NCBI GenBank assembly: GCA_022800525.1
Contig: JAAWQM010000027.1
Coordinates: forward strand, 1-38,120
DNA length: 38,120 nucleotides
Direction of reading: 5' to 3'
From: Oscillospiraceae bacterium
GTDB lineage: Bacteria > Bacillota > Clostridia > Oscillospirales > Oscillospiraceae
Shown one piece after another: positions 3,044-29,906 of this stretch. Numbering within the stretch: position 1 is the stretch's first letter; each line of letters opens with the position of its first letter. The translations under genes and the position numbers were made by a program. The notes under the pieces were generated by a model. It was not told where the DNA came from and searched no databases. It saw nothing but the letters and a program-made list of their open reading frames with translations.

Positions 3044-3119
3044 TGGTCCGAGTGACGGGATTTGAACCCACGGCCTCTTGGTCCCGAACCAAGCGCGCTA
3101 CCAGCTGCGCCACACCCGG
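3044..3119 (-). tRNA. tRNA-Pro (anticodon CGG), CCA encoded
   Basis: Folds as a full cloverleaf on the minus strand: acceptor CCGGGTG/CACTCGG with one G-T pair, D arm GCGC..GCGC, anticodon stem CTTGG/CCAAG with loop TTCGGGA (anticodon CGG), five-base variable region AGGCC, and T arm GTGGG-TTCAAAT-CCCGT. The discriminator is A and the 3' CCA is encoded (3046-3044). Its 3' end faces the integrase element, the classic attB position for tyrosine integrases. Confidence 0.96.
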
Positions 3120-3257: not shown

Positions 3258-5282
3258 TCAAGTCCCCAGCTGCACCCACAGTTCATTATACAGCGCCCGG
3301 GTCTCCGCAGGCAGTACCAGATAGCTCTCGCAACGCTCCAGCACCTCGGCAGGAGCCGCCATGATTTCATACAGCTCCATATCCAGCTCCTCCGCATACA
3401 GCTCCTCGTAGTACGCTGGATACTTCTCCAGAGCTTCCCGGTTGGGGGAGGCGTAACCGATATAATCCATGTTGGCCAGATTGGCCTCCGTTGAAGCGAT
3501 GAAGTTGATCCACTGCTCAGCGGCGTCCTTGTGGGGGGCGTCCTTCAGTACGCACATAGCGTCCACAAACCAGTTGGAGCCCTCCTCCGGGATCACATAG
3601 GCCAGTTCAACCCCATCCGCCTGATTATCCAGCATGGACAGGTAGTCACCGGCATAGTAGGTGGCGATGGCAGCGTTGCCGCCCTCCATCTTTTGGAACA
3701 CCTCGTCTGAAGCCTTGCCCTGGAACACGCCCCGGCGGTTGGCGCTGGCAATCAGGTCAAAGGCCTGACGGATCTCCGCCTCATCCGTGGTGTTGACAGA
3801 ATACCCCAGATAAAGCAGCGCCTCGCCCAGGGCGTCCCGGGAGTTGTTAATCAGCAGCACATTCCCGGCATACTTGTCGTCATACAGGGCGCTCCAGCTG
3901 GTGATTTCCTCGCTCACAACATTGGTGTTGTAAATAATCCCCAATGTTCCCCAGGTATAGGGAACCGTAAATTGGTTCTCCGGATCATAGGGGAGGTTCC
4001 GGAACCGCTCGTCGATCCGCTCAAAATTGGGGATATTTCCGTAATCCAAAGGCTCCACCATGTCCTCCTCAATGAACTGGGCAATCATATAGTCAGAAGT
4101 GACCACTACGTCATAGTCCGCGCCGCCGCTTTTCAGCAGGGAGTAGATTGCCTCATTGCTTTCCGCAGTCTGATAGTTTACCCGGATGCCGGTCTCCTCC
4201 TCGAACTGGTTAATCAGATCTGTGTCAATATATTCACCTAGACTGCACACATTGACAACCGGGCGGGAGGTGGTTGCGTTTGCCAGTCCGGAAACCACAA
4301 TCGCAAAGACGGCCACGCACAACGCTGCCAGTCCCCGCTGCGCCCAGCGTCCTGTGGGAGAGCCCATCCACTGGGCCGCTTTTTCCACGGCGGCAGGCCG
4401 GGGCTTGGCCGGGGCAGGGGAGAAGTCCTTGGCGTTCCGTTTTTCCAACCGGGCTTCCCGTACATTGGTAATCACCAGCAACGTCAGCACCGACAGAAAC
4501 AGCAGGGTGGAGACCGCGTTGATTTCCGGCGTGATGCGCCGCTTGGTCATGCCGTAAATGGTCATCGCCAGCGTGGAGCTGGAGGAACCGGCTGTAAAGT
4601 AGGAGATGACAAAGTCATCGATGGACATGGTGAAGGCGATCAGCGCACCGGAGACGATGCCCGGCTTGATCTCAGGCAGGGCGACCTTCCAGAAAGCCTG
4701 CATCCAGGTGCAGCCCAGGTCCTGGGCCGCGTCCAGCAGATTCTTGTCCATCTGCCGCAGCTTCGGCGCCACATTCAGGATAACATAGGGAATGTCGAAG
4801 GCGATATGGGCCAGCAGCAGCGTCCCCAGGCCCAGCGTCAGCCGGGTGGGCAGCGCCACTGCGCCCTGGATGCCGTTGAACCACTTGGCAAAAACGCCCC
4901 AGCCCTGAAAGAACGCCACGAAGAACAGGCACAGACTGACGCCCGTGACAATGTCTGCGTTCATCATGGGAATATTGTTCACCGTCATCAGGGCCTCCCG
5001 CTTCCGTCGGCTGAGGCTGTAGAGCCCTACGGCGGCGAAGGTGCCCGCCGCCGTGGAGATTACGGTGGCCAGCAGGGATACCAGCAGCGTCATATAGACG
5101 CTCTCCATGATGATCCGGTTCTGGAACAGTTGGGCGTACCAATGGAGAGAGAAGCCCCTCCAGACCGCGCTGCTGTCCCCCGCGTTGAAGGAGAACACAA
5201 TCAGCAGCAGAATCGGCGCATACAGAAACAGGAAGACCAGGCCAATCAGCAGGCGGCTTCCGAAGCGGCTTTGCTTTCTCAT
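3258..5282 (-). CDS. potCD: Spermidine/putrescine ABC transporter, fused permease PotC and substrate-binding PotD
   Basis: One 674-residue protein. Residues 1-275 are a PotC permease: six membrane segments and the EAA loop DAAQDLG...ALPEIKPGI (about 184-209) that docks on PotA. A charged cytoplasmic linker (about 276-315, rich in A/P/K) leads to a seventh membrane segment (LAALCVAVFAIVVSGLA, about 318-335). From about 342 on there is a complete PotD/periplasmic-binding domain (VNVCSLGEYIDTDLINQF, DYDVVVTSDYM, NWFVDAMCVLKDAPH). The extra membrane segment places the binding domain outside the cell, replacing the lipid anchor of a free PotD. The start ATG overlaps the potB stop (ATGA), so the two are coupled. 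Last gene of the potA-potB-potCD operon. Fusion is seen directly; substrate is inferred from the family. Confidence 0.93.
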   Translation of the reverse strand: MRKQSRFGSRLLIGLVFLFLYAPILLLIVFSFNAGDSSAVWRGFSLHWYAQLFQNRIIMESVYMTLLVSLLATVISTAAGTFAAVGLYSLSRRKREALMTVNNIPMMNADIVTGVSLCLFFVAFFQGWGVFAKWFNGIQGAVALPTRLTLGLGTLLLAHIAFDIPYVILNVAPKLRQMDKNLLDAAQDLGCTWMQAFWKVALPEIKPGIVSGALIAFTMSIDDFVISYFTAGSSSSTLAMTIYGMTKRRITPEINAVSTLLFLSVLTLLVITNVREARLEKRNAKDFSPAPAKPRPAAVEKAAQWMGSPTGRWAQRGLAALCVAVFAIVVSGLANATTSRPVVNVCSLGEYIDTDLINQFEEETGIRVNYQTAESNEAIYSLLKSGGADYDVVVTSDYMIAQFIEEDMVEPLDYGNIPNFERIDERFRNLPYDPENQFTVPYTWGTLGIIYNTNVVSEEITSWSALYDDKYAGNVLLINNSRDALGEALLYLGYSVNTTDEAEIRQAFDLIASANRRGVFQGKASDEVFQKMEGGNAAIATYYAGDYLSMLDNQADGVELAYVIPEEGSNWFVDAMCVLKDAPHKDAAEQWINFIASTEANLANMDYIGYASPNREALEKYPAYYEELYAEELDMELYEIMAAPAEVLERCESYLVLPAETRALYNELWVQLGT

Positions 5283-12136: not shown

Positions 12137-13294
12137 ATGGAAATCACACAGGGCGCGCGCTTTGATACCCTGGGGCTTTCGCCCGAGATTATGCGCGCGC
12201 TGGAAAAAAAAGGATATGAGGTATCCACTCCCATTCAGGCGGGGGGCATCCCTCCCATGCTGGACTGGCAGGACGTGACCGCGAAAGCGCCCACCGGTAC
12301 CGGAAAGACCTTCGCCTTCGGCATCCCCATCATCGAGCACGTGGACCCTGGCTCCGATCAGGTTCAGGCGGTAGTGCTGGCTCCCACCAGGGAGCTGGCC
12401 ATGCAGATCACCAGCGAGATGCGGGACCTGGCCCAGTTCAAGCCCAATATCCGCATGGTCTGTCTCTACGGCGGCCAGCCTATCGGCAAGCAGATCGACG
12501 CGCTGAAAAAGCGTCCCCAGATCGTTATTGCCACCCCCGGACGCCTGGGGGACCACCTCAAGCGCCGCACGGTCCGCCTGGACCATGTGCAGACCGCCAT
12601 CCTGGACGAGGCGGACCGGATGCTGGACATGGGCTTTATCCACGACGTGACCCGCCTGCTGGACCAGATGAAGAGCCGGAGGAACCTGGGCCTCTTCTCC
12701 GCCACCATCAGCCGGGAGGTTATGGACATCGCCTGGGTATACCAGCGGGACCCGGTGGAGATCACCGTCCGGGCCGACGAGGAGAACAAGCCGGATATCC
12801 TCCAGTACAGCCTGGAGCTGAGCATGAACGAGAAGGTGGACGCGGTGGAGAGAATATTGAACCGGGAGCGGTTTGACCGCGTGATGATCTTCTGCAACAC
12901 CAAGGGCAACACGGAGCGGGTGACCAAGCTGCTGCAAATGCGGGGCGTGGACGCCCAGTGCATCCACGGCGACATCCCCCAGGAGAAGCGGGAGAGGGTC
13001 ATGGCCCGGTTCCGCCGGGGGGAGCTGCGGGTCTTCGTGGCCACCGACGTGGCCGCGCGGGGCATCGACGTGGACGATGTGGACGCGGTGTTCAACTACG
13101 ACGTGCCCGACGAGAACGAGTATTACGTCCACCGCATCGGCCGTACCGGGCGGGCCAGACGGCGCGGCGCGGCCTATACCCTTGTGACCGACTATCCCGC
13201 CCTGGTGCGTCTGAAGGACATCGCAAAGCATACGCGCAACGAGATCCAGCCGGTAAAATTCGGGGAGGACGGCTCCCTTGTTCCGGCGAACTGA
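12137..13294 (+). CDS. DEAD-box ATP-dependent RNA helicase
   Basis: 385 residues with all helicase motifs and no C-terminal RNA-binding extension. Q motif F-x-x-LGLSPEIMRAL...STPIQ, Walker A APTGTGKT, Ia PTRELAMQ, TPGRL, DEAD in LDEADRMLDMGF, SAT, then VMIFCNTK, ARGIDVDDVD and YYVHRIGRTGRA. Compact forms like this act as general RNA chaperones in ribosome assembly, cold adaptation or mRNA decay. AGAGGA precedes ATG 12137. The gene ends ten bases before the next lipoprotein gene, probably in the same transcript. Autoregulation through the hairpin at 12046 is possible, as known for some cold-induced helicases. Confidence 0.95.
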   Translation: MEITQGARFDTLGLSPEIMRALEKKGYEVSTPIQAGGIPPMLDWQDVTAKAPTGTGKTFAFGIPIIEHVDPGSDQVQAVVLAPTRELAMQITSEMRDLAQFKPNIRMVCLYGGQPIGKQIDALKKRPQIVIATPGRLGDHLKRRTVRLDHVQTAILDEADRMLDMGFIHDVTRLLDQMKSRRNLGLFSATISREVMDIAWVYQRDPVEITVRADEENKPDILQYSLELSMNEKVDAVERILNRERFDRVMIFCNTKGNTERVTKLLQMRGVDAQCIHGDIPQEKRERVMARFRRGELRVFVATDVAARGIDVDDVDAVFNYDVPDENEYYVHRIGRTGRARRRGAAYTLVTDYPALVRLKDIAKHTRNEIQPVKFGEDGSLVPAN

Positions 13295-13304
13295 TGAGGA
13301 ACCT

Positions 13305-15143
13305 ATGAAAAAAAAGAGTACCACCCTGCTGGCGCTGCTGCTGGCGGTTCTGCTGGCCGCGTGCGGCGTGGGGCAGCCAGCGCCTGATAAAGCCGGGCCG
13401 TCCGGCGTCCAGCCCCAGGAGCCCTACAGCCTCACCGTGCGCCTGAGCGAGGCGCAGACCACCCTGGACCCGGCCAGCGTCACGGCCCGGGGCGGGGAGG
13501 CCATCCTGTTCCACCTGTTCGAAAACCTGATGCGCTGGGAGGACGACGGCCACGGCTGGGCTGTGACCGGCTATGGGCAGGCGGAGAGCTTCGCCGTGGA
13601 GACCGACTACGCCGGGAACAGCACATACACCTTCACCCTGCGGGAGGACGCTGTCTGGTCCGACGGGACGGCGGTCACTGCCAATGATTTTGCCGCCGCG
13701 TGGCGGCGGCTGGCGGACCCGGCCAACAACCTGCCGCACCGCATGCTGCTGGAGGCTGTGTCCGGCTACGCCGAGGTTCAGGAGACAGGGGACACGTCCC
13801 TGCTGGGCGTGTCCGCTCCGGATGAGCGGACGTTCATCGTGTCCCTGACCGGCAGCCCCTCCTACTTTCTGGAGGAGGTCTGCGCCAGCGCCTATACCAT
13901 GCCGCTCTATCCCGGTGCGGATTCCAATACCAAAGGCGAGTTTACCAATGGAGCGTATGTCGCAAAAAGCGCAGCCGGGGATGTGGTCACGCTGGAGCGC
14001 AGCGGAACCTATTATCAGGCCGGAGAGCTTCAGGGCCCTCAGAAGCTGAATTTTGCCGTAATCGAGGATGCCGAGGCGGATTATGCCGCTTTCCAGTCGG
14101 GAGAGGCGGCTCTGGTAGTGGATCTGCCGGAGGAGGTTCTCCAGGAGCTGTCAGACAGCGGGAGCTGGACGCCGGAGCCGGTGAGCGCATCCTACGCCGT
14201 GCTGCTGAACACCCGGCAGGCGCCCTTTGACAATCCCGATGTGCGGCTGGCCTTCCTCCTGACCGCCGCCTCCCAGGCGGTGACGGAGCGGATGGGGCTG
14301 CTGACCATCCGCGCGACGCCCGGCATCATCCCCTACGGAGTGGCCGACTACAGCGAACGGCCTGTGGAGGAGGAGCCGGAGGAACCGGAGGAGCCCACCC
14401 TGCCTGACCCCAACGCCGTCCCCGTACCGGAGGAGCACGCCGCCCCTGTCTTCTGGGACTACCGCGCCCACAGCCTCCATCTGGTGACCCTGGGAGCGGA
14501 CGAGCAGGACTATGAGGCCGACTGCCGTCAGGCCAGGGCTCTGATGGCCCAGGCGGGCTACGCCAACGGCAGCGGCTTCCCGGCGGTGGAATATCTCTAT
14601 GTGGAGTCCGAGGAGGGCCGCGCCGCCGCCCAGGCTCTCCAGGCCATCTGGAAGGAGCAGCTGGGGGTCACCGTTACCCTGAAGAGCGTGAGTCAGGCGG
14701 AGTATGACGAGAGAACCGCCCTGGTTCCCATTGACCAGGAGACCCTGGACAGCGGGGAGGACATCCCCCGCCGGGTGGACGGGCTGCCAACCGCTACCGG
14801 CAGCTTTTCCATGGCGGCCCAGCCCTTCACCGCGCCCTACAGCGACGCAGGGGCGCTGCTGGAGCAATGGCACAGCGAGGACCCGGCCAACGTCACCGGC
14901 TATGTCAGCGCGGCCTTTGACATCCTGCTGGATTCCGCCCACAGTGTGGTCTCGCCGGACGCAAGGGACGCTTACCTCCACGACGCCGAGGCCATTCTGC
15001 TTACCGACGCGCCGGTAATTCCCGTGTTCTGCCGGAGCGGCAGCTATCGGCTGAGGGAGGACCTGACGGGTCTCTACCGTGGACCCAACGGAGTCTATTT
15101 CCTGCAAAATGCGGCACCGTCGGAGAGTCCGGACAACAGTTAA
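13305..15143 (+). CDS. Oligopeptide-type ABC transporter substrate-binding lipoprotein (SBP family 5)
   Basis: 612 residues. Lipoprotein signal peptide MKKKSTTLLALLLAVLLAAC with lipobox LAAC (Cys20). Family-5 features: LTVRLSEAQTTLDPASV, then YTFTLREDAVWSDGTAVTANDFAAAWRRL (strong match), VSLTGSPSYFLEEV, LLNTRQAPFDNPDVR. An acidic proline-rich insert (EEEPEEPEEPTLPDPN) is unusual. Start ATG 13305 follows TGAGGA; an in-frame TTG at 13278 overlaps the helicase. No permease or ATPase genes are next to it, so it is an orphan binding protein that may use a transporter elsewhere or act as a peptide sensor. Confidence 0.9.
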   Translation: MKKKSTTLLALLLAVLLAACGVGQPAPDKAGPSGVQPQEPYSLTVRLSEAQTTLDPASVTARGGEAILFHLFENLMRWEDDGHGWAVTGYGQAESFAVETDYAGNSTYTFTLREDAVWSDGTAVTANDFAAAWRRLADPANNLPHRMLLEAVSGYAEVQETGDTSLLGVSAPDERTFIVSLTGSPSYFLEEVCASAYTMPLYPGADSNTKGEFTNGAYVAKSAAGDVVTLERSGTYYQAGELQGPQKLNFAVIEDAEADYAAFQSGEAALVVDLPEEVLQELSDSGSWTPEPVSASYAVLLNTRQAPFDNPDVRLAFLLTAASQAVTERMGLLTIRATPGIIPYGVADYSERPVEEEPEEPEEPTLPDPNAVPVPEEHAAPVFWDYRAHSLHLVTLGADEQDYEADCRQARALMAQAGYANGSGFPAVEYLYVESEEGRAAAQALQAIWKEQLGVTVTLKSVSQAEYDERTALVPIDQETLDSGEDIPRRVDGLPTATGSFSMAAQPFTAPYSDAGALLEQWHSEDPANVTGYVSAAFDILLDSAHSVVSPDARDAYLHDAEAILLTDAPVIPVFCRSGSYRLREDLTGLYRGPNGVYFLQNAAPSESPDNS

Positions 15144-15159
15144 TGTGAATGAGCCGTGA

Positions 15160-15198
15160 ACGGACGGCGGAAGCTTGGACGCCTCTGCCGCCCGTTTT
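15160..15198 (+). terminator. Terminator after the SBP gene
   Basis: Arms ACGGACGGCGGA (15160-15171) and TCTGCCGCCCGT (15184-15195) pair with one mismatch and one wobble, followed by TTTTGTGTTT. Confidence 0.65.
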
Positions 15199-15300
15199 GT
15201 GTTTGGACCTTTTGGGAATGAACGGTATGTTGCATCCGCAACTGTACAATTTCGCAGGATGCAGTATGCTGTCATTATAACCTGACGCGCCTGAACAGGT

Positions 15301-15360
15301 AAAATTTTGGACCGCCTGGGCAAAGCCCTGGCGGGTTTGGGCGGAGCCCAACGCCCACAA
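15301..15360. repeat. REP-like intergenic element, copy 1 (in the cooS leader)
   Basis: TTTTGGACC, then hairpin CCGCCTGGGC-AAA-GCCCTGGCGG, then GGGTTTGGGCGGAGCCCAAC with a second small hairpin. The same order of blocks occurs at 25591-25640. Similar modules are common between genes in Clostridia as far as I know. Here it would fold in the 5' leader of cooS. Confidence 0.5.
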
Positions 15361-15432
15361 GCCCCGGTCAAGTGCGCCGGTCACCCCCGCAGTCATTTTG
15401 GAAATCATTCATTGGAGGAGGAAAACATCATC

Positions 15433-17322
15433 ATGAACACCTGCACCGGCTGCCTCAGCCGAAACACCTGCCCCAGCGCGGATCAGCCTATGGAGGAATA
15501 CATCCGCCAGCTCCCCCTTGAGACCGCCCACCACCGGGTGGCCACTCAGGAAACCAAGTGCGGCTTTGGCCTGCAGGGCGTGTGCTGCCGCCTGTGCGCC
15601 AACGGTCCCTGCCGCATCACCCCCAACGCGCCCCGCGGCATCTGCGGGGCCAGCGCCGACACCATTGTGGCCCGGAATTTCCTGCGGGCCGTGGCCGCCG
15701 GGTCCGGATGCTACATCCATGTGGTGGAGAACACCGCCCGCCAGCTGAAGAACACCGGCCTGCACAAGGATAAGATCCGCAGCGAGAAGGCTCTGAACCA
15801 TCTGGCAGAGCTCTTCGGCGTCACTGGAACGGACAAGTACGACCTGTGCGTGAAGGTGGCGGATGCGGTGCTCAGCGACCTGTACCGCCCCGAGTACGAG
15901 CCGATGGAGCTGGTGGAGAAGATGGCTTACGCGCCCCGGGTGAAGAAGTGGAAGGAGCTGGGCATCATGCCTGGCGGCGCTAAGGGCGAGGTATTCAACA
16001 ACATCGTCAAGACCTCCACCAACCTCAGCTCTGACCCTGTGGAGATGCTGGTTTCCTGTCTGCGGCTGGGTATTTCCACCGGTGTGTACGGCCTCCAGCT
16101 GACCAACCTGCTCAACGACGTGGTGCTGGGCGACCCTGAAATCCGCACCGCGCCTGTGGGCATGAACGTCATCGACCCTGATTACATCAACATCCTCATT
16201 ACCGGCCACCAGCACTCCCTGTTTACCTATATCCAGGACCGCCTCCTGGACGGGGACGTAGTGGAGAAGGCCAAGGCCGCCGGCGCCAAGGGCTTCAAGT
16301 TGGTGGGCTGCACCTGCGTGGGCCAGGACCTCCAGCTGCGGGGCGCGCACTACACGGAAATTTTCGACGGACACGCGGGCAACAACTACATCTCTGAGGC
16401 GGTGTTGTCCTGCGGCGCGATTGATGCGGTGCTCAGCGAGTTCAACTGCACGCTGCCGGGCATCGAGACCATCTGTGATGAGCTGAAGATCAAGCAGATT
16501 TGCCTGGATGCCGTCGCAAAGAAGGCCAACGCCGAGTACATCCCCTTCAACTACGAGACCCGTCAGGCGGACGGCGACAGGATCATCGACGAGATCATCA
16601 CGGCCTACAAGGCCCGCCGGGGCAGCGTGCCCATGAACCTGTTCACCGATCACGGCAATAAGAACACCCTCACTGGCGTCAGCGAAGGGAGTCTGAAGGC
16701 GTTCCTGGGCGGCAGCTGGAAGCCCCTTGTTGACCTCATCGCCGCGGGGAAGATCAAGGGCCTGGCGGGCGTCGTGGGCTGCTCCAGCGTGGCCTACGGC
16801 CACGACACCCTGACCGCCGAGCTGACAAAGGAGCTGATCGCCAGGGACATCCTGGTCCTGACGGCGGGCTGCTCCTCCGGCGGTCTGGAGAACATCGGCC
16901 TAATGACCCCCGAAGCCGCCGAGCTGGCCGGTCCAAACCTGAAAGCGGTCTGCAAGGAACTGGGCATCCCGCCGGTTCTGAACTTCGGTCCCTGTCTGGC
17001 CATCGGCCGTCTGGAGATCGTGGCCACCGAGATCGCGGAGGAGCTGGGCATAGACCTGCCCCAGCTGCCGCTGGTGATTTCCGCCGCCCAGTGGCTGGAG
17101 GAGCAGGCGCTGGCGGACGGCGCGTTCGCATTGGCGCTGGGCCTGCCGCTGCACCTGGGCGTGCCGCCCTTCATCACTGGCAGCAAGCTGGTCACCAAGG
17201 TGCTGACCGAGGACATGGTTGGCCTCACCGGAGGCCGGGTCATCGTCGATCCGGACGGCAAGTCCGCCGCCGGCCAGCTGGAGGCCATCATCGAGGAGAA
17301 GCGCAAGGCCCTGAACATTTAA
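15433..17322 (+). CDS. cooS: Divergent anaerobic Ni-Fe carbon monoxide dehydrogenase catalytic subunit
   Basis: 629 residues, normal CooS length. CO + H2O to CO2 + 2 e- + 2 H+ is the family reaction. D- and B-cluster cysteines: C43, C51, C52, C55, C60, C71 (KCGFGLQGVCCRLC, NGPC, GIC). C-cluster ligands by alignment: H259 (ITGHQH), C295 (VGCTCVG), C339 (EFNCTLP), C450 (VVGCSS), C480 (TAGCSS), C521 (FGPCLA), so all are present. However the second-shell residues differ from characterised CODHs: the AAHSDHGRH histidine relay is AAGSGCYIHVVEN here, and the catalytic Lys of W-x-x-EKA is Gln (WLEEQA, Q558). Activity is therefore uncertain. GGAGGAGG precedes ATG 15433. First gene of a three-gene operon with a CooF-like ferredoxin and an FAD/NAD oxidoreductase. 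Confidence 0.9.
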   Translation: MNTCTGCLSRNTCPSADQPMEEYIRQLPLETAHHRVATQETKCGFGLQGVCCRLCANGPCRITPNAPRGICGASADTIVARNFLRAVAAGSGCYIHVVENTARQLKNTGLHKDKIRSEKALNHLAELFGVTGTDKYDLCVKVADAVLSDLYRPEYEPMELVEKMAYAPRVKKWKELGIMPGGAKGEVFNNIVKTSTNLSSDPVEMLVSCLRLGISTGVYGLQLTNLLNDVVLGDPEIRTAPVGMNVIDPDYINILITGHQHSLFTYIQDRLLDGDVVEKAKAAGAKGFKLVGCTCVGQDLQLRGAHYTEIFDGHAGNNYISEAVLSCGAIDAVLSEFNCTLPGIETICDELKIKQICLDAVAKKANAEYIPFNYETRQADGDRIIDEIITAYKARRGSVPMNLFTDHGNKNTLTGVSEGSLKAFLGGSWKPLVDLIAAGKIKGLAGVVGCSSVAYGHDTLTAELTKELIARDILVLTAGCSSGGLENIGLMTPEAAELAGPNLKAVCKELGIPPVLNFGPCLAIGRLEIVATEIAEELGIDLPQLPLVISAAQWLEEQALADGAFALALGLPLHLGVPPFITGSKLVTKVLTEDMVGLTGGRVIVDPDGKSAAGQLEAIIEEKRKALNI

Positions 17323-17337
17323 GGGAGGCGCGGGAAG

Positions 17338-17811
17338 ATGAAACGAATTTTTATTGACCCTGCCAAGTGTGACGGGTGCAAGAACTGCACCGTCGCGTGC
17401 ATGGCGTCCCACAGCGACATGCCCCTCAGGAAGGGGACTCTGACAGAGCTCCGTCAGGCTGTCTACGCCCTGGACCTGACCGATCCCGAGAACCAGTCCC
17501 GCAACCGCATCATTTCCGACGGCAAGGGCGGCTATAAGCCCATCTTCTGCCGCCACTGCGACGTCCCCGACTGCGCGGGGACGTGCATGAGCGGCGCGCT
17601 GCAAAAAAATATGGAAAACGGTCTGGTGGAGTATAACGCGGACAAATGCGCGGCATGTTATATGTGCGTTATGAACTGCCGCTACGGCGTGCCCGCCGTC
17701 ACTCCTGACCGGAAGCGGGTCATCAAGTGCGACTTCTGCGCCCATCTGGAGGAGGGCCCCGCCTGCGTGAGGTCCTGCCCCAAGAAAGCTATTGAAGTAA
17801 GGGAGGTGTGA
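17338..17811 (+). CDS. cooF: CooF-like polyferredoxin (four 4Fe-4S clusters)
   Basis: 157-residue electron carrier of the HycB/CooF/DMSO-reductase-B family. Cysteine groups: CDGCKNCTVAC (about 11-21), CRHCDVPDCAGTC, CAACYMCVMNC, and CDFCAHLEEGPACVRSC. That is 16 cysteines, enough for four clusters. The first group loops through a short insert, as in CooF. It would take electrons from CooS and pass them to the FAD/NAD protein. GGGAGG precedes ATG 17338, 15 bases after cooS; its stop is two bases before the next start. Confidence 0.92.
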   Translation: MKRIFIDPAKCDGCKNCTVACMASHSDMPLRKGTLTELRQAVYALDLTDPENQSRNRIISDGKGGYKPIFCRHCDVPDCAGTCMSGALQKNMENGLVEYNADKCAACYMCVMNCRYGVPAVTPDRKRVIKCDFCAHLEEGPACVRSCPKKAIEVREV

Positions 17812-17813
17812 CC

Positions 17814-19043
17814 ATGGAGCGATTTGTCATCATCGGCGCCGGCGCGGCAGGTATCACCGCCGCCCAGACGCTGCGGGACTTCCGCCCCGACGATATCATC
17901 ACCGTAATCTCCATCGACGGGCACGTCCATTCCCGCTGTATGCTCCATAAGTTCTTAGGCCACGAGAGGACCATCCAAGGGATCAACTTTGTGGGGGAGG
18001 ATTTTTTTGAGAAGAACAATATCTTCCATATTTCCTGCCAGACTGTCAATCGGATCGACACCGGGGCCAAAACCGTCCATTACGGCGAGGATTACAGCAT
18101 CCCCTATGACAAGCTGCTGATTGCCACGGGTTCCGGCTTCTTCATCCCGCCCATTCCCCATTTCCGGGAGGCCCCCAACGTGTTCGGCTTCCGGGATCTC
18201 AGCGATGCGCTGAAGATCGACGAGGCGTTCGCCAAGGGCAAGCGGGTGTTCATCGTGGGTTCCGGCCTGGTGGGCCTGGACGCCGCGTCGGCCCTCTGCC
18301 ACCGGGGCGGTCAGGTCACCATCGCCGAGATGGCACCCCGGGTGATGCCCCTGCAAACGGACGACTACGCCGCCAGCGTCTATCAGAAGGTCTTTGAAGA
18401 CCAGGGCTGCCGGTTCCTGCTTGGCATCGGGGCCTCGGACGCGGTGGTGGACGGAGAGGGGAACATCACGGAGGTGATCCTCTCCACCGGAGAGCATGTG
18501 CCCTGCGATTTCATTATCATGGCTGCGGGCGTGCGGCCCCGCATCCAGATTGCCCTGGACAGCGGCATCAAGGCGGAGCGTGCCATTGAGGTGGACGATC
18601 ACCTGCGGACCTCCGCACCGGACGTGTACGCGGCGGGGGACTGCACCGGACTTTCCGGCGTGTGGCCCGACGCCATGGCCCAGGGCAAGGCGGCGGCGGA
18701 GAACATGGCCGGACTCGACACGGTATACGAGAAGCCCTATCCCTTCAAGAACACCAGCAACTTCTTCGGCGTGACCATGCTGTCCGTAGGCCGGATGGAC
18801 CTGACGGAGGGCGCGGATATCCTGGTCCACAGGACGCCCAAGGAGTACAAGAAGGCCATTATCACCAACGGCAAGCTGACAGGCTATCTGTCCCTGGGGG
18901 ATATCTCCAACCACGGCCTGTACCTGCATCTTATCAAGAACGGCATCGACGTCAGCGACAAGAAGGACAGAGTCTTCCGTCTGACCTTCGCCGATTTCTA
19001 CGGGATTAACGAGAAGAACGGCGAGTACGTCTATACGGTGTAA
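17814..19043 (+). CDS. FAD-dependent pyridine-nucleotide-disulfide-type oxidoreductase (FNOR, CO-linked)
   Basis: 409 residues. FAD-binding VIIGAGAAGITAAQTL at the N terminus, ATGSGFFIPPIP, NAD(P)-binding VFIVGSGLVGLDAASAL, and the second FAD motif DVYAAGDCTG. A C-terminal NirB/rubredoxin-reductase-type domain follows. The known cooS-cooF-FNOR arrangement of clostridia and Geobacter suggests electrons go from CooS through CooF to NAD(P)H; this is inference from context. Start ATG 17814 (MERFVI) has GGGAGGTG upstream; GTG 17808 would add two residues. A strong terminator follows. Confidence 0.9.
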   Translation: MERFVIIGAGAAGITAAQTLRDFRPDDIITVISIDGHVHSRCMLHKFLGHERTIQGINFVGEDFFEKNNIFHISCQTVNRIDTGAKTVHYGEDYSIPYDKLLIATGSGFFIPPIPHFREAPNVFGFRDLSDALKIDEAFAKGKRVFIVGSGLVGLDAASALCHRGGQVTIAEMAPRVMPLQTDDYAASVYQKVFEDQGCRFLLGIGASDAVVDGEGNITEVILSTGEHVPCDFIIMAAGVRPRIQIALDSGIKAERAIEVDDHLRTSAPDVYAAGDCTGLSGVWPDAMAQGKAAAENMAGLDTVYEKPYPFKNTSNFFGVTMLSVGRMDLTEGADILVHRTPKEYKKAIITNGKLTGYLSLGDISNHGLYLHLIKNGIDVSDKKDRVFRLTFADFYGINEKNGEYVYTV

Positions 19044-19072
19044 CAGGGGCGGAAAAATTCCCCCAGAACAGG

Positions 19073-19119
19073 CCAGCGGCGGCTGTCTCCCTCAGAAGAG
19101 GCGGCCGCCGCTGGTTTTT
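19073..19119 (+). terminator. Terminator of the cooS-cooF-FNOR operon
   Basis: Arms CCAGCGGCGGC (19073-19083) and GCCGCCGCTGG (19104-19114) followed by TTTTT. Confidence 0.9.
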
Positions 19120-19166
19120 GACACCATACCGTGTCAGCGGTTCCCGCAATTTTGTCAGATTGCCTG

Positions 19167-19194
19167 TTGAAATTCTGAAAGAAATGTCTATAAT
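19167..19194 (+). promoter_or_regulatory. Promoter of the lipase operon
   Basis: TTGAAA (19167-19172), 16 bases, TATAAT (19189-19194). TGTTGAA (19165-19171) and its exact reverse complement TTCAACA (19197-19203) flank the spacer and -10. Confidence 0.78.
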
Positions 19195-19233
19195 AGTTCA
19201 ACAAGCAAGTTTTCCAAAAGTCGGAGGTAAAGG

Positions 19234-20094
19234 ATGAAAACAGGAATCGTAGACGTAGGCGGAGGCTTCCGGGGCATCTATGCGGCAGGGGTGTTCGACT
19301 ACTGCCTGGACCGGGATATCCATTTTGACCTGTCCATCGGCGTGTCGGCGGGCAGCGCCAATGTGGCCTCCTATCTGGCGGGGCAGCGGGGACGGAACTA
19401 CACATTTTATACGGAGTATGCCATGCGGAAGGAGTACATGGGGGCCAGGAATCTTCTGACCCAGCGGTCATACATCGATCTTGACTATGTGTATGGAACG
19501 CTGAGCAACTCCACCGGGGAATATCCGCTGGACTACAGGGCGATGATGGAAAACCCCGGGGAGATGCTGGTGGTAGCCACCAACGCGCTGACTGGCAGCG
19601 GGCGGTATTTCGGCAAGGGGGAGGTGGTTCAGGACTGCTACGACATGTTCAAGGCGTCCTCCGCCATCCCCTTCGTGTGCAGGCCCTACATGGTGGGCTG
19701 GATGCCCTATTTTGATGGTGCGCTGGCCGACCCGGTGCCCGTTGAGAAGGCGTTCCAGTGCGGCTGTGACAAGGTGGTGGTACTGCTGACCCGTCCGGCG
19801 GACCGGAAGAGGGGGCCGGGGAAGGACGCGTTTTTCGCGGACAGAATCCAGCATAAGTATCCCTTCGCCGCCCGGAAGCTCCGTACCCGCGTGGAGCGGT
19901 ACAACGCCGGGGTGGAGCTGGCAAAGCGGTATCAGGCGGAGGGCCGCGCACTGATTGTCGCGCCGGACGACACCTGTGGGGTGGACACCCTGACGCGGGA
20001 AAAAGCCTCGCTGACGCGCTTTTACCACAAGGGCTATCAGGACGCCCAGGCAATTCTGACATTTCTGGCCGGAGAGAAAAAGGAGGTGGTATGA
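19234..20094 (+). CDS. Patatin-like phospholipase (YjjU/RssA-type)
   Basis: 286-residue serine acyl hydrolase, cytoplasmic (no signal peptide). Oxyanion-hole loop DVGGGFRGIYAAG, nucleophile S38 in GVSAGS, and Asp of the dyad D161 in YFDGALADP. These are the three patatin signatures. Lipid substrate unknown. CGGAGG precedes ATG 19234. It has its own promoter, and its stop overlaps the next start as ATGA, so it is coupled to a secreted lipase-like protein. The pair acts on either side of the membrane, by inference. Confidence 0.92.
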   Translation: MKTGIVDVGGGFRGIYAAGVFDYCLDRDIHFDLSIGVSAGSANVASYLAGQRGRNYTFYTEYAMRKEYMGARNLLTQRSYIDLDYVYGTLSNSTGEYPLDYRAMMENPGEMLVVATNALTGSGRYFGKGEVVQDCYDMFKASSAIPFVCRPYMVGWMPYFDGALADPVPVEKAFQCGCDKVVVLLTRPADRKRGPGKDAFFADRIQHKYPFAARKLRTRVERYNAGVELAKRYQAEGRALIVAPDDTCGVDTLTREKASLTRFYHKGYQDAQAILTFLAGEKKEVV

Positions 20095-28350: not shown

Positions 28351-29906
28351 AATGAAACCTCCATCAGCTGTTCCCGTTCCACCGGGAACAGCCCGTCTTC
28401 AGTAAACCGGTACAGCTTACCGCATACCTGCGTGAGGAACTTCCGGTCATGGGACACGCTGATGACCGTCCCCTCGTAGTCCGCCAGCGCCTCCCGCACT
28501 CTTGGTCCGGAAATCGGCGAAAAGTTCCGGGTCGGCTCATCCAGAATCAGCACATTCACCCCGTCCAGCATCATTTTCGTCAGTAGCAGCTTCGCCTTCT
28601 GCCCGCCGGACAGCTCCCGGATCGGGTGGGCCATCTCCTGCCGGGTATAGCGGATACTGCCCAGATACGTCCGCGCTCTCGTCTCTGACGCCGTGTCCCC
28701 CTCCGGGGCCAGGTACTGCACCGGCGTCTGCTCCAGCGGCAGTGTATCGGCGTAATCCTGAGACATATAGGCGGCGTGAATGTCCCTGCGGGACAGCAGC
28801 TCCGCCACGATGCGCCGCAACAGCGTGGTCTTCCCCGCCCCGTTGGGACCCAGGATGCCCACCTTCTCTCCGCCGGAGACATGGAGCCGGACATTCCTTG
28901 CCAGTAGCCTCTCTCCCGCCCGCAGCTCTGGCAGACTCAGATCCAGTACGGTCTTTCCGGCAGGCACAGCCGTCCCGCCTGGAAAACGGAGGAACACAGC
29001 CTCCTCCACCTCCGGCAGTTGGGTCATATCCTCCGCCTCACGCTCGAACCGGCGGCCCATGGACAGCACAGTATGCATCTTCTTTTTCAATAGCCGGCCC
29101 GTACCCGGATCCTGGCGGGAAACCGCGCCCTGTGCGCGCTCCACGCTATGCTGGATGCGGCGGTATTTTTCCATCTTCTTGTCGTACGCTTCCCGCTCCT
29201 TTCGGGCCTGCTGGGTCTGAGTGACGATGGCCTCCTCCCGGCGGCTGATATAGGCCGCGTAGTCCAGCCGGTGGACCGTACACCGGGGCGGCTTCCCCTC
29301 CCGGGGATGCTCCATGTGAAGCACCATCGTCGCGGTGTTCTCAATCAGCGTCTCATCATGAGAGATATACAGTACGCTCCCGTGAAACGCGCAAATGAAT
29401 CCTTCCAGCCACTCCAGCGTCTCCAGGTCCAGATCGCTGGACGGCTCATCCAGCAGCAGCGCCGCCGGACGGCTGAACAGCAGCCGTCCCAGCTGGAGCT
29501 TGATCCGTTCCCCGCCGGAGAGGCTGGAGACCGGACGGCCGCTGTAGAACTCCTCCGCCGGGAAGCGCAGCTTCCGGGCGATATCCGCCAGCTCCCTGGG
29601 CGTCAGGTCGAAGAAGGCCGGGGATGCGGCGCAGAAGTCATAGACGCTCCCCGCCTTCTCCTCCTCGCTGAGGTCCTGGGCCAGATAGCCAATGAAGCCC
29701 GGATCCCCAGCCAGCTCGCCGCTCCATTCGCAGTAGGACTCAATCAGCCCGGGATCATAGACCCATTTCAGCAGCGTCGATTTCCCGTTGCCCTCCTCTC
29801 CGATGACTGCGGCCTTGTCTCCATCGCCGATGACGAAGGAAAAATCCGCCGCCAGGTCCCGCAGGTCCTTCCGGTGCGTCAATGTCAGGTTCTTTACTTG
29901 GATCAT
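28347..29906 (-). CDS. ABC-F family ATPase (putative ribosome-protection protein)
   Basis: 519-residue soluble protein with two ATPase domains and no membrane segments. Domain 1: Walker A GEEGNGKSTLL, signature SLSGGERIKLQ, Walker B ALLLDEPSSDLD. Domain 2: GPNGAGKTTLLRR, ELSGGQKAKLLL, LILDEPTRNFSP. The interdomain linker (about 225-300), rich in charged residues (QQARKEREAYDKKMEKYRR), is the part that enters the ribosomal peptidyl-transferase region in antibiotic-resistance ABC-Fs. DEPTRNFSP is typical of such clostridial forms. GAGGAGG precedes ATG 29906. The 250-base leader has an uORF and a terminator, the standard drug-inducible layout. Specific drug unknown. Confidence 0.9.
   Translation of the reverse strand: MIQVKNLTLTHRKDLRDLAADFSFVIGDGDKAAVIGEEGNGKSTLLKWVYDPGLIESYCEWSGELAGDPGFIGYLAQDLSEEEKAGSVYDFCAASPAFFDLTPRELADIARKLRFPAEEFYSGRPVSSLSGGERIKLQLGRLLFSRPAALLLDEPSSDLDLETLEWLEGFICAFHGSVLYISHDETLIENTATMVLHMEHPREGKPPRCTVHRLDYAAYISRREEAIVTQTQQARKEREAYDKKMEKYRRIQHSVERAQGAVSRQDPGTGRLLKKKMHTVLSMGRRFEREAEDMTQLPEVEEAVFLRFPGGTAVPAGKTVLDLSLPELRAGERLLARNVRLHVSGGEKVGILGPNGAGKTTLLRRIVAELLSRRDIHAAYMSQDYADTLPLEQTPVQYLAPEGDTASETRARTYLGSIRYTRQEMAHPIRELSGGQKAKLLLTKMMLDGVNVLILDEPTRNFSPISGPRVREALADYEGTVISVSHDRKFLTQVCGKLYRFTEDGLFPVEREQLMEVSL

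Follow-up and report, generated by a model that had tools for sequence, protein, structure and literature searches.

The 38,120 nt stretch analysed here (the window; contig JAAWQM010000027.1 of the Oscillospiraceae bacterium assembly GCA_022800525.1) contains, at positions 15433–17322 of the forward strand, an open reading frame (ORF) whose translation gives 629 aa with no internal stop. The deduced product has the features of the catalytic subunit of a CooS-type carbon monoxide dehydrogenase (CODH), and specifically those of the published clade C, group C-1. In a profile search it scored 763 bits against TIGR01702 (cut-off 478) and 33 bits against TIGR01703 (hydroxylamine reductase, or hybrid cluster protein, Hcp), below the cut-off of 360.8, which rules out membership of the latter family; the Pfam family Prismane/CODH is common to the CODH and the hybrid cluster protein. 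The gene forms part of a three-gene operon, cooS-cooF-FNOR, with genes for a CooF-like ferredoxin and an FAD-dependent NAD(P) oxidoreductase (FNOR) immediately behind it (Table 1).

The set of C-cluster ligands is complete in the alignment (H259, C295, C339, C450, C480 and C521), and these residues, like the D- and B-cluster cysteines C43, C51, C52, C55, C60 and C71, lie at the numbers that a first reading of the sequence alone (the original prediction) had assigned to them. The acid-base positions are occupied by Tyr94 and Gln558. The segment corresponding to the proton relay indeed reads AAGSGCYIHVVEN and the lysine motif WLEEQA, and five alignments to CODHs of solved structure are ungapped inside both. 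The GHQHSLFTY segment after the C-cluster His, also pointed out initially, is equally real, E/F-type CODHs having a Pro two residues past that His in all 15 readable rows. The original prediction described an enzyme that had lost its relay and catalytic Lys. The substitutions themselves stand, but not as a peculiarity of this protein, since Tyr and Gln together with a complete C-cluster define clade C; nor is mere loss an adequate description, because a nine-residue alternative set is almost invariant in that clade.

Clade C comprises groups C-1 to C-4, which have a complete C-cluster with the acid-base His changed to Tyr and the Lys to Gln; group C-1 additionally has an N-terminal motif of two to four Cys and a type II D-cluster, and C-1 and C-2 genes group with those for FNOR and CooF (Inoue 2019, PMC6344411). 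The same traits are found here: the C-cluster His and five Cys are all present, Y94 replaces His and Q558 replaces Lys, the D-cluster spacing C43-x7-C51-C52 fits Cys-(X)7-13-Cys-Cys, and there are extra N-terminal cysteines (C4, C7 and C13), although the first ten residues have low confidence in the predicted model. The CooF (COG0437) and FNOR neighbours were recognized by family match, the COG labels not being from this analysis. Two to four Cys precede C43 in 101 of the 108 distinct rows readable there, the start sites of the relatives being uncurated. Nothing excluding membership was found, and by these traits the CODH counts as an ordinary member of clade C, group C-1, and not as an oddity.

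The active-site residues were compared in an alignment of 172 rows, labelled in this analysis from the residue patterns in Table 2 of PMC6344411, with distinct sequences of clade C type (110), E/F type (16) and groups D-1 (6), D-2 (14) and D-3/D-4 (11). Among readable distinct clade-C-type sequences we found Cys93 in 108/108, Tyr94 in 108/109, His96 in 109/109, Glu99 in 108/109, Gln260 in 110/110, Thr294, Cys295 and Asn338 each in 109/109, Glu556 in 106/106 and Gln558 in 105/106, the lone exceptions at 94 and 558 being rows with a broken frame (L043 and L107). With the pattern scan described below excluded, Cys295 is present in 44/44 readable rows from protein searches. The D-type rows have Asn338, Glu556 and Lys558 (31/31 in each case), and the readable E/F-type rows have His94 (15/15), Gln338 (16/16) and Lys558 (14/14). 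In CooS-V of Carboxydothermus hydrogenoformans, Fe3 of the hybrid cluster has Glu556 as a ligand, and a cluster water is within short hydrogen-bond distance of Asn337 (PMC9311411); the equivalents of Glu556 in hybrid cluster proteins are also cluster ligands (PMC10502027). Inoue 2019 noted a Glu at 556 for group D-1, and the examined text of PMC6344411 holds no mention of it for clade C; likewise, the main text of PMC13056359, supplements apart, does not mention glutamate, tyrosine or a motif, and among the hits listed by a literature search, judged by title and the start of the abstract, none plainly treats Glu556 in clade C. The alignment indicates that clade C combines the cysteines of nickel CODHs with the glutamate of the hybrid cluster. 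What was first taken for a lost relay is more aptly called a replaced shell: the active site appears rebuilt, not simply stripped.

Table 1. Features of the cooS-cooF-FNOR region, with positions in the window.
Feature	Position	Strand	Basis or remark
Predicted CRP/FNR-type activator site: palindrome TTGC-N4-GCAA (15230–15241) and -10-like TATGCT (15265–15270)	15230..15270	+	prediction
Ribosome binding site GGAGGAGG	15414..15421	+	by eye
CooS-type catalytic subunit	15433..17322	+	629 aa
N-terminal Cys motif C4, C7, C13 (C-1 group feature)	15442..15471	+	sequence
D-/B-cluster Cys C43, C51, C52, C55, C60, C71; type II D-cluster C-x7-CC	15559..15645	+	alignment
C93-Y94-I-H96-V-V-E99, replacing the His relay	15709..15729	+	alignment
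H259-Q260-H261: C-cluster His and clade-C neighbours	16207..16215	+	alignment
T294-C295: C-cluster Cys kept (Glu in CooS-V)	16312..16317	+	alignment
N338-C339: Asn (CooS-V Asn337; Gln in E/F type) preceding a C-cluster Cys	16444..16449	+	alignment; PMC9311411
E556-E557-Q558: Glu aligned with the iron ligand of the hybrid cluster, Gln aligned with the catalytic Lys	17098..17106	+	alignment; PMC9311411
CooF-like ferredoxin, 157 aa, Cys motifs for four [4Fe-4S] clusters (by eye)	17338..17811	+	Fer4_11 and relatives
FNOR, FAD-dependent NAD(P) oxidoreductase	17808..19043	+	Pyr_redox_2, Rubredoxin_C

A maximum-likelihood tree was built with 61 of the 172 aligned rows, with no outgroup and after removing the long rows 6vwy and L023; one outgroup row of a first tree, taken from L065, was a 1049-aa ORF and not an Hcp, and that rooting was discarded. 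Clades C and D together are separated from the E/F type with support of 100/100, and Glu556 and Gln558 each change once, gain and loss being indistinguishable because the tree is unrooted. The 33 clade-C-type rows occupy one side of a branch (100/100) facing CooS-V and the E/F type, in a tree with no published clade-C-labelled sequence. Support for clade D as a single group is weak (84/80), and long branches meet according to a warning from the program.

Homologs of the gene were sought in 60 relatives, including 24 other genomes of the same genus, and 17 of these 24 contain it with 84–96% identity (12 copies are complete or at most two residues short). A search of the class recovered it from 11 other genomes of 391, with 63–74% identity and, in one of them (G374), an in-frame stop, and a search of the phylum (398 genomes) added rows with 58–75% identity. 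We also scanned named genomes and retained 80 (the named loci) from among 374 encoding stretches; these were found via the patterns TCVGQDLQ and GGAK[SG]EVF, so that Thr294 and Cys295 are partly built into them, a bias from which the rows from protein searches are free. By title, the named loci are from Oscillospiraceae, Lachnospiraceae, other Clostridia, one Peptacetobacter and seven Spirochaetota. The Spirochaetota-titled loci (L102, L126, L127, L130, L134, L141 and L145) have clade-C-type CODH, CooF and FNOR genes, and three of them (L102, L126 and L141) fall inside the Bacillota rows on the first tree. The ratio of nonsynonymous to synonymous substitution rates (dN/dS) among 13 genus copies had a median of 0.075 and a maximum of 0.171 (finite values were obtained for 67 of 78 pairs), a median indicating purifying selection and a gene that is not decaying. 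With the near-fixation of the residue pattern in 110 distinct relatives, this makes chance an unlikely origin of the pattern. An assembly artefact was ruled out, because Tyr94 is present in 16/16 other rows of the genus and Gln558 in the 12/12 that reach it; the piece from the seventeenth genome, G013, was too short to examine.

The link to CooF and FNOR, proposed in the original prediction, is borne out by gene order. In the 75 named loci with at least 1500 nt of downstream sequence, a CooF homolog lies within 1.5 kb and an FNOR homolog within 4 kb of the CODH gene in 74, L128 being the sole locus with neither. Purine-rich stretches resembling a ribosome binding site precede the start codon in most of 15 aligned relatives, and the likelier start of FNOR, by eye, is the ATG at 17814. 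The source genome (2.87 Mb in 112 contigs) encodes another CODH, in which the HSDH and SEKA motifs are canonical; its gene lies on contig C50, ca. 2 kb from a match to CdhC (AcsB-type), so the clade C enzyme is an extra beside the CODH/acetyl-CoA synthase (ACS) system; a profile search found no Hcp above the cut-off in this genome. Within the genus, CdhC is present in 23/25 genomes and Hcp above the cut-off in 2/25, and co-occurrence of clade C with CODH/ACS has been reported (PMC13056359).

Upstream of the CODH gene and on the same strand is a gene for a family 5 solute-binding lipoprotein (13278–15143), which, where found in relatives, is 38–62% conserved, far below the CODH. Elsewhere in the window, a single 674-aa ORF on the minus strand (3258–5282) fuses a transporter permease domain to a solute-binding domain, and a pemK RNA motif (567–639), a phage-type integrase gene (1104–2321) and a tRNA-Pro (3044–3119) lie close together, perhaps marking the edge of an integrated element. 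An Rfam search of the window returned only one tRNA and one pemK RNA, neither near the operon.

The palindrome TTGC-N4-GCAA upstream of the operon is followed 23 nt later by TATGCT and would centre near -41.5, which we take to be the position of class II CRP/FNR activator sites. The palindrome/-10 pattern matches once in the window, against a shuffle mean of 0.07, and 5 of 100 shuffles gave at least one match. A stricter version of the palindrome pattern matches in 15/25 genus genomes, with none for a reversed control: upstream of the clade C gene in 7 genomes, including this one, beside a gene for a CRP/FNR-type regulator (cNMP_binding + HTH_Crp_2) in 11 genomes, and at two other places (G000:C109 and G021:C93). 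The regulator gene of the source genome, on contig C9, also has the palindrome in its promoter, near 29062 (L213:2563), lacking the leading T of the stricter pattern. Across 15 relatives, an upstream alignment shows the palindrome at that spacing in 6 but not in the other 9. Matches to the looser pattern are also found within coding sequence, in loci such as L088, L116, L120, L131 and L136, so a single match means little. A scan for sigma-70 promoters and terminators over 15100–19300 gave no plus-strand match in 15100–15433, and the promoter is thus proposed from the palindrome/-10 spacing and its conservation alone. Whereas some members of the genus have this CRP/FNR-type site ahead of the operon, 23 of the 80 named loci have instead, no more than 0.6 kb upstream, a gene that clusters with an Rrf2-type protein, identified from one representative (the L104 protein) tested against family libraries; none of these 23 is among the 6 with the palindrome. 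Perhaps the operon is switched on by a CRP/FNR-type regulator. Among the matches listed, seven are distant regulator rows (32–36%), five of which share a contig with an Hcp-type match, two such matches being weak. An ORF of ca. 87 aa with an end similar to the C-terminus of NrdD diverges from the regulator gene in L179, L180, L193, L196 and L213; in L213 it lies downstream of 2563, with the start ATGATGCAG.

With regard to function, for which the original prediction had suggested another substrate, a slow or one-way CO enzyme or a redox sensor, we favour, at even confidence, an NAD-linked and probably slow CO-oxidizing nickel enzyme. The ligand set would still assemble a Ni-Fe-S C-cluster, at which CO leaking from the CODH/ACS of the cell, or coming from the gut, would be slowly oxidized. 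Protons would be handled by the rebuilt shell of Tyr94, His96 and Glu99, with Glu556 beside the cluster, and not by a His chain and Lys, and electrons would pass from the C-cluster through the B- and D-clusters to CooF, FNOR and NAD+. The role may be that of an auxiliary CO valve or a source of NADH, auxiliary because the cell has a separate canonical CODH/ACS. The NAD+/NADH couple has a potential of ca. -320 mV. With CO/CO2 at ca. -520 mV (PMC11338639), thermodynamics would favour the direction from CO to NAD+. CO oxidation is also supported by the fixation of all six C-cluster ligands in clade C, Cys295 included, the C295E and C295A variants of CODH-II being Ni-deficient and devoid of CO oxidation (PMC9311411). 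Additionally, the CooS of T. kivui, placed in clade C (PMC13056359), reaches 13.9 U/mg in CO oxidation with methyl viologen and 0.5 U/mg when ferredoxin is used, and deletion of its gene abolishes growth on CO (PMC8683389). The CooF and FNOR homologs in 74 of 75 loci, the canonical CODH near CdhC in the same genome and the purifying selection on the gene also speak for this reading.

Several observations weigh against this reading. T. kivui CooS branches early and was called a poor representative of clade C, for which low or no CO activity is expected (PMC13056359); in a strain adapted to CO, its cooS and cooF1 are less expressed during growth with CO than with H2/CO2 (PMC12056078); and the likeness to the enzyme described here is one of published clade label. 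The literature consulted yields no activity assay of a group C-1 enzyme, and C-1 genes are induced by O2 in the clostridia C. ljungdahlii and C. acetobutylicum, as cited in PMC6344411. Moreover, Glu556 and Asn338, both features of the hybrid cluster of CooS-V, are fixed in the clade C alignment and absent from the readable E/F-type rows (0/14 and 0/16, respectively). For the acid-base residues themselves, mutant structures of CODH-II exist, and a literature search for activities of its H93A and K563A variants found nothing.

A hybrid-cluster-like reductase is a close rival. In such an enzyme, which we consider a serious possibility though short of probable, NADH would pass electrons via FNOR and CooF to a cluster held by five Cys, His and Glu556, reducing small oxidants such as hydroxylamine, NO, peroxide or O2-derived species in a stress role like those of HCP and CooS-V. 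Besides the distribution of Glu556 and Asn338, shared with every D-type row, and the O2 response of the two clostridia, this is favoured by the Rrf2-type gene near 23 of the 80 loci, the CRP/FNR-type lead and the absence of an Hcp above the cut-off from the source genome; the retained Cys295 and the activity of T. kivui CooS fit slow CO oxidation instead. A bolder and rather doubtful proposal is that clade C enzymes have an active site of a third type within the CODH/HCP superfamily. Glu556 would join the five Cys and the His of a nickel CODH, either as a seventh ligand or as a base built into the site, and the cluster would change structure with redox state. It would serve to reduce a stress molecule with electrons from NADH, or to carry out a CO reaction gated by redox state, with CRP/FNR or Rrf2 in control.

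It is improbable, in our judgement, that the protein is a redox or gas sensor with little turnover, reporting CO or redox state through CooF and FNOR or by cluster rearrangement. Redox-sensing or regulatory roles have been proposed for clades C and D (PMC13056359), and deletion of the clade C gene of C. autoethanogenum alters growth; however, the conserved NAD-linked chain is a better fit to catalysis, family scans found no output domain, and the regulators are separate genes. The deletion decides nothing between the readings, because the two sources describe opposite effects: a growth deficiency with CO (PMC6344411) or a shorter lag and faster growth (PMC13056359). As for a decaying pseudo-CODH kept by chance, changes at positions long regarded as catalytic and the in-frame stop of G374 might suggest it, but the low dN/dS, the 84–96% identity of the copies in 17 other genomes of the genus (24 searched) and the retention of the active-site set across families leave it next to no credence, and a pseudogene is ruled out by dN/dS and conservation.

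The clade C type was already known, and what is added here is small: the combination of Glu556 with Cys295, and the link between the palindrome and the regulator, both of which make the function of the clade testable. Since Glu556 and Asn338 occur with a retained Cys295, they pose a sharp question, namely whether the protein holds a nickel cluster or a hybrid cluster. Clade C CODH genes are frequent among gut bacteria, making up 179 of the 1380 putative CODH genes in PMC11338639, where they count as putative CO enzymes. The answer bears on how much of the predicted CO metabolism of the gut is truly CO metabolism.

Compared with known systems, the CODH shares its metal ligands and fold with E/F-type enzymes (CODH-IV, the CooS proteins of R. 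rubrum and D. vulgaris, and the CODH on contig C50 of the same genome), which differ from it in having His and Lys as acid-base residues, Gln338, Ser or His at 556 and Cys294. With the hybrid cluster protein (TIGR01703; class III HCP, 7e0l) it shares the Pfam family and an equivalent of Glu556, but it has Cys and not Glu at 295, and N-terminal clusters of the CODH type. CooS-V (clade D-1, PDB 7b7q, PMC9311411) likewise has the iron-ligand residue found here as E556; however, D-1 enzymes have Glu at 295, which rules out membership of that clade for a protein with Cys295, and where CooS-V has Lys558 the CODH has Gln558. The type II D-cluster and the operon with CooF and FNOR are further differences from CooS-V.
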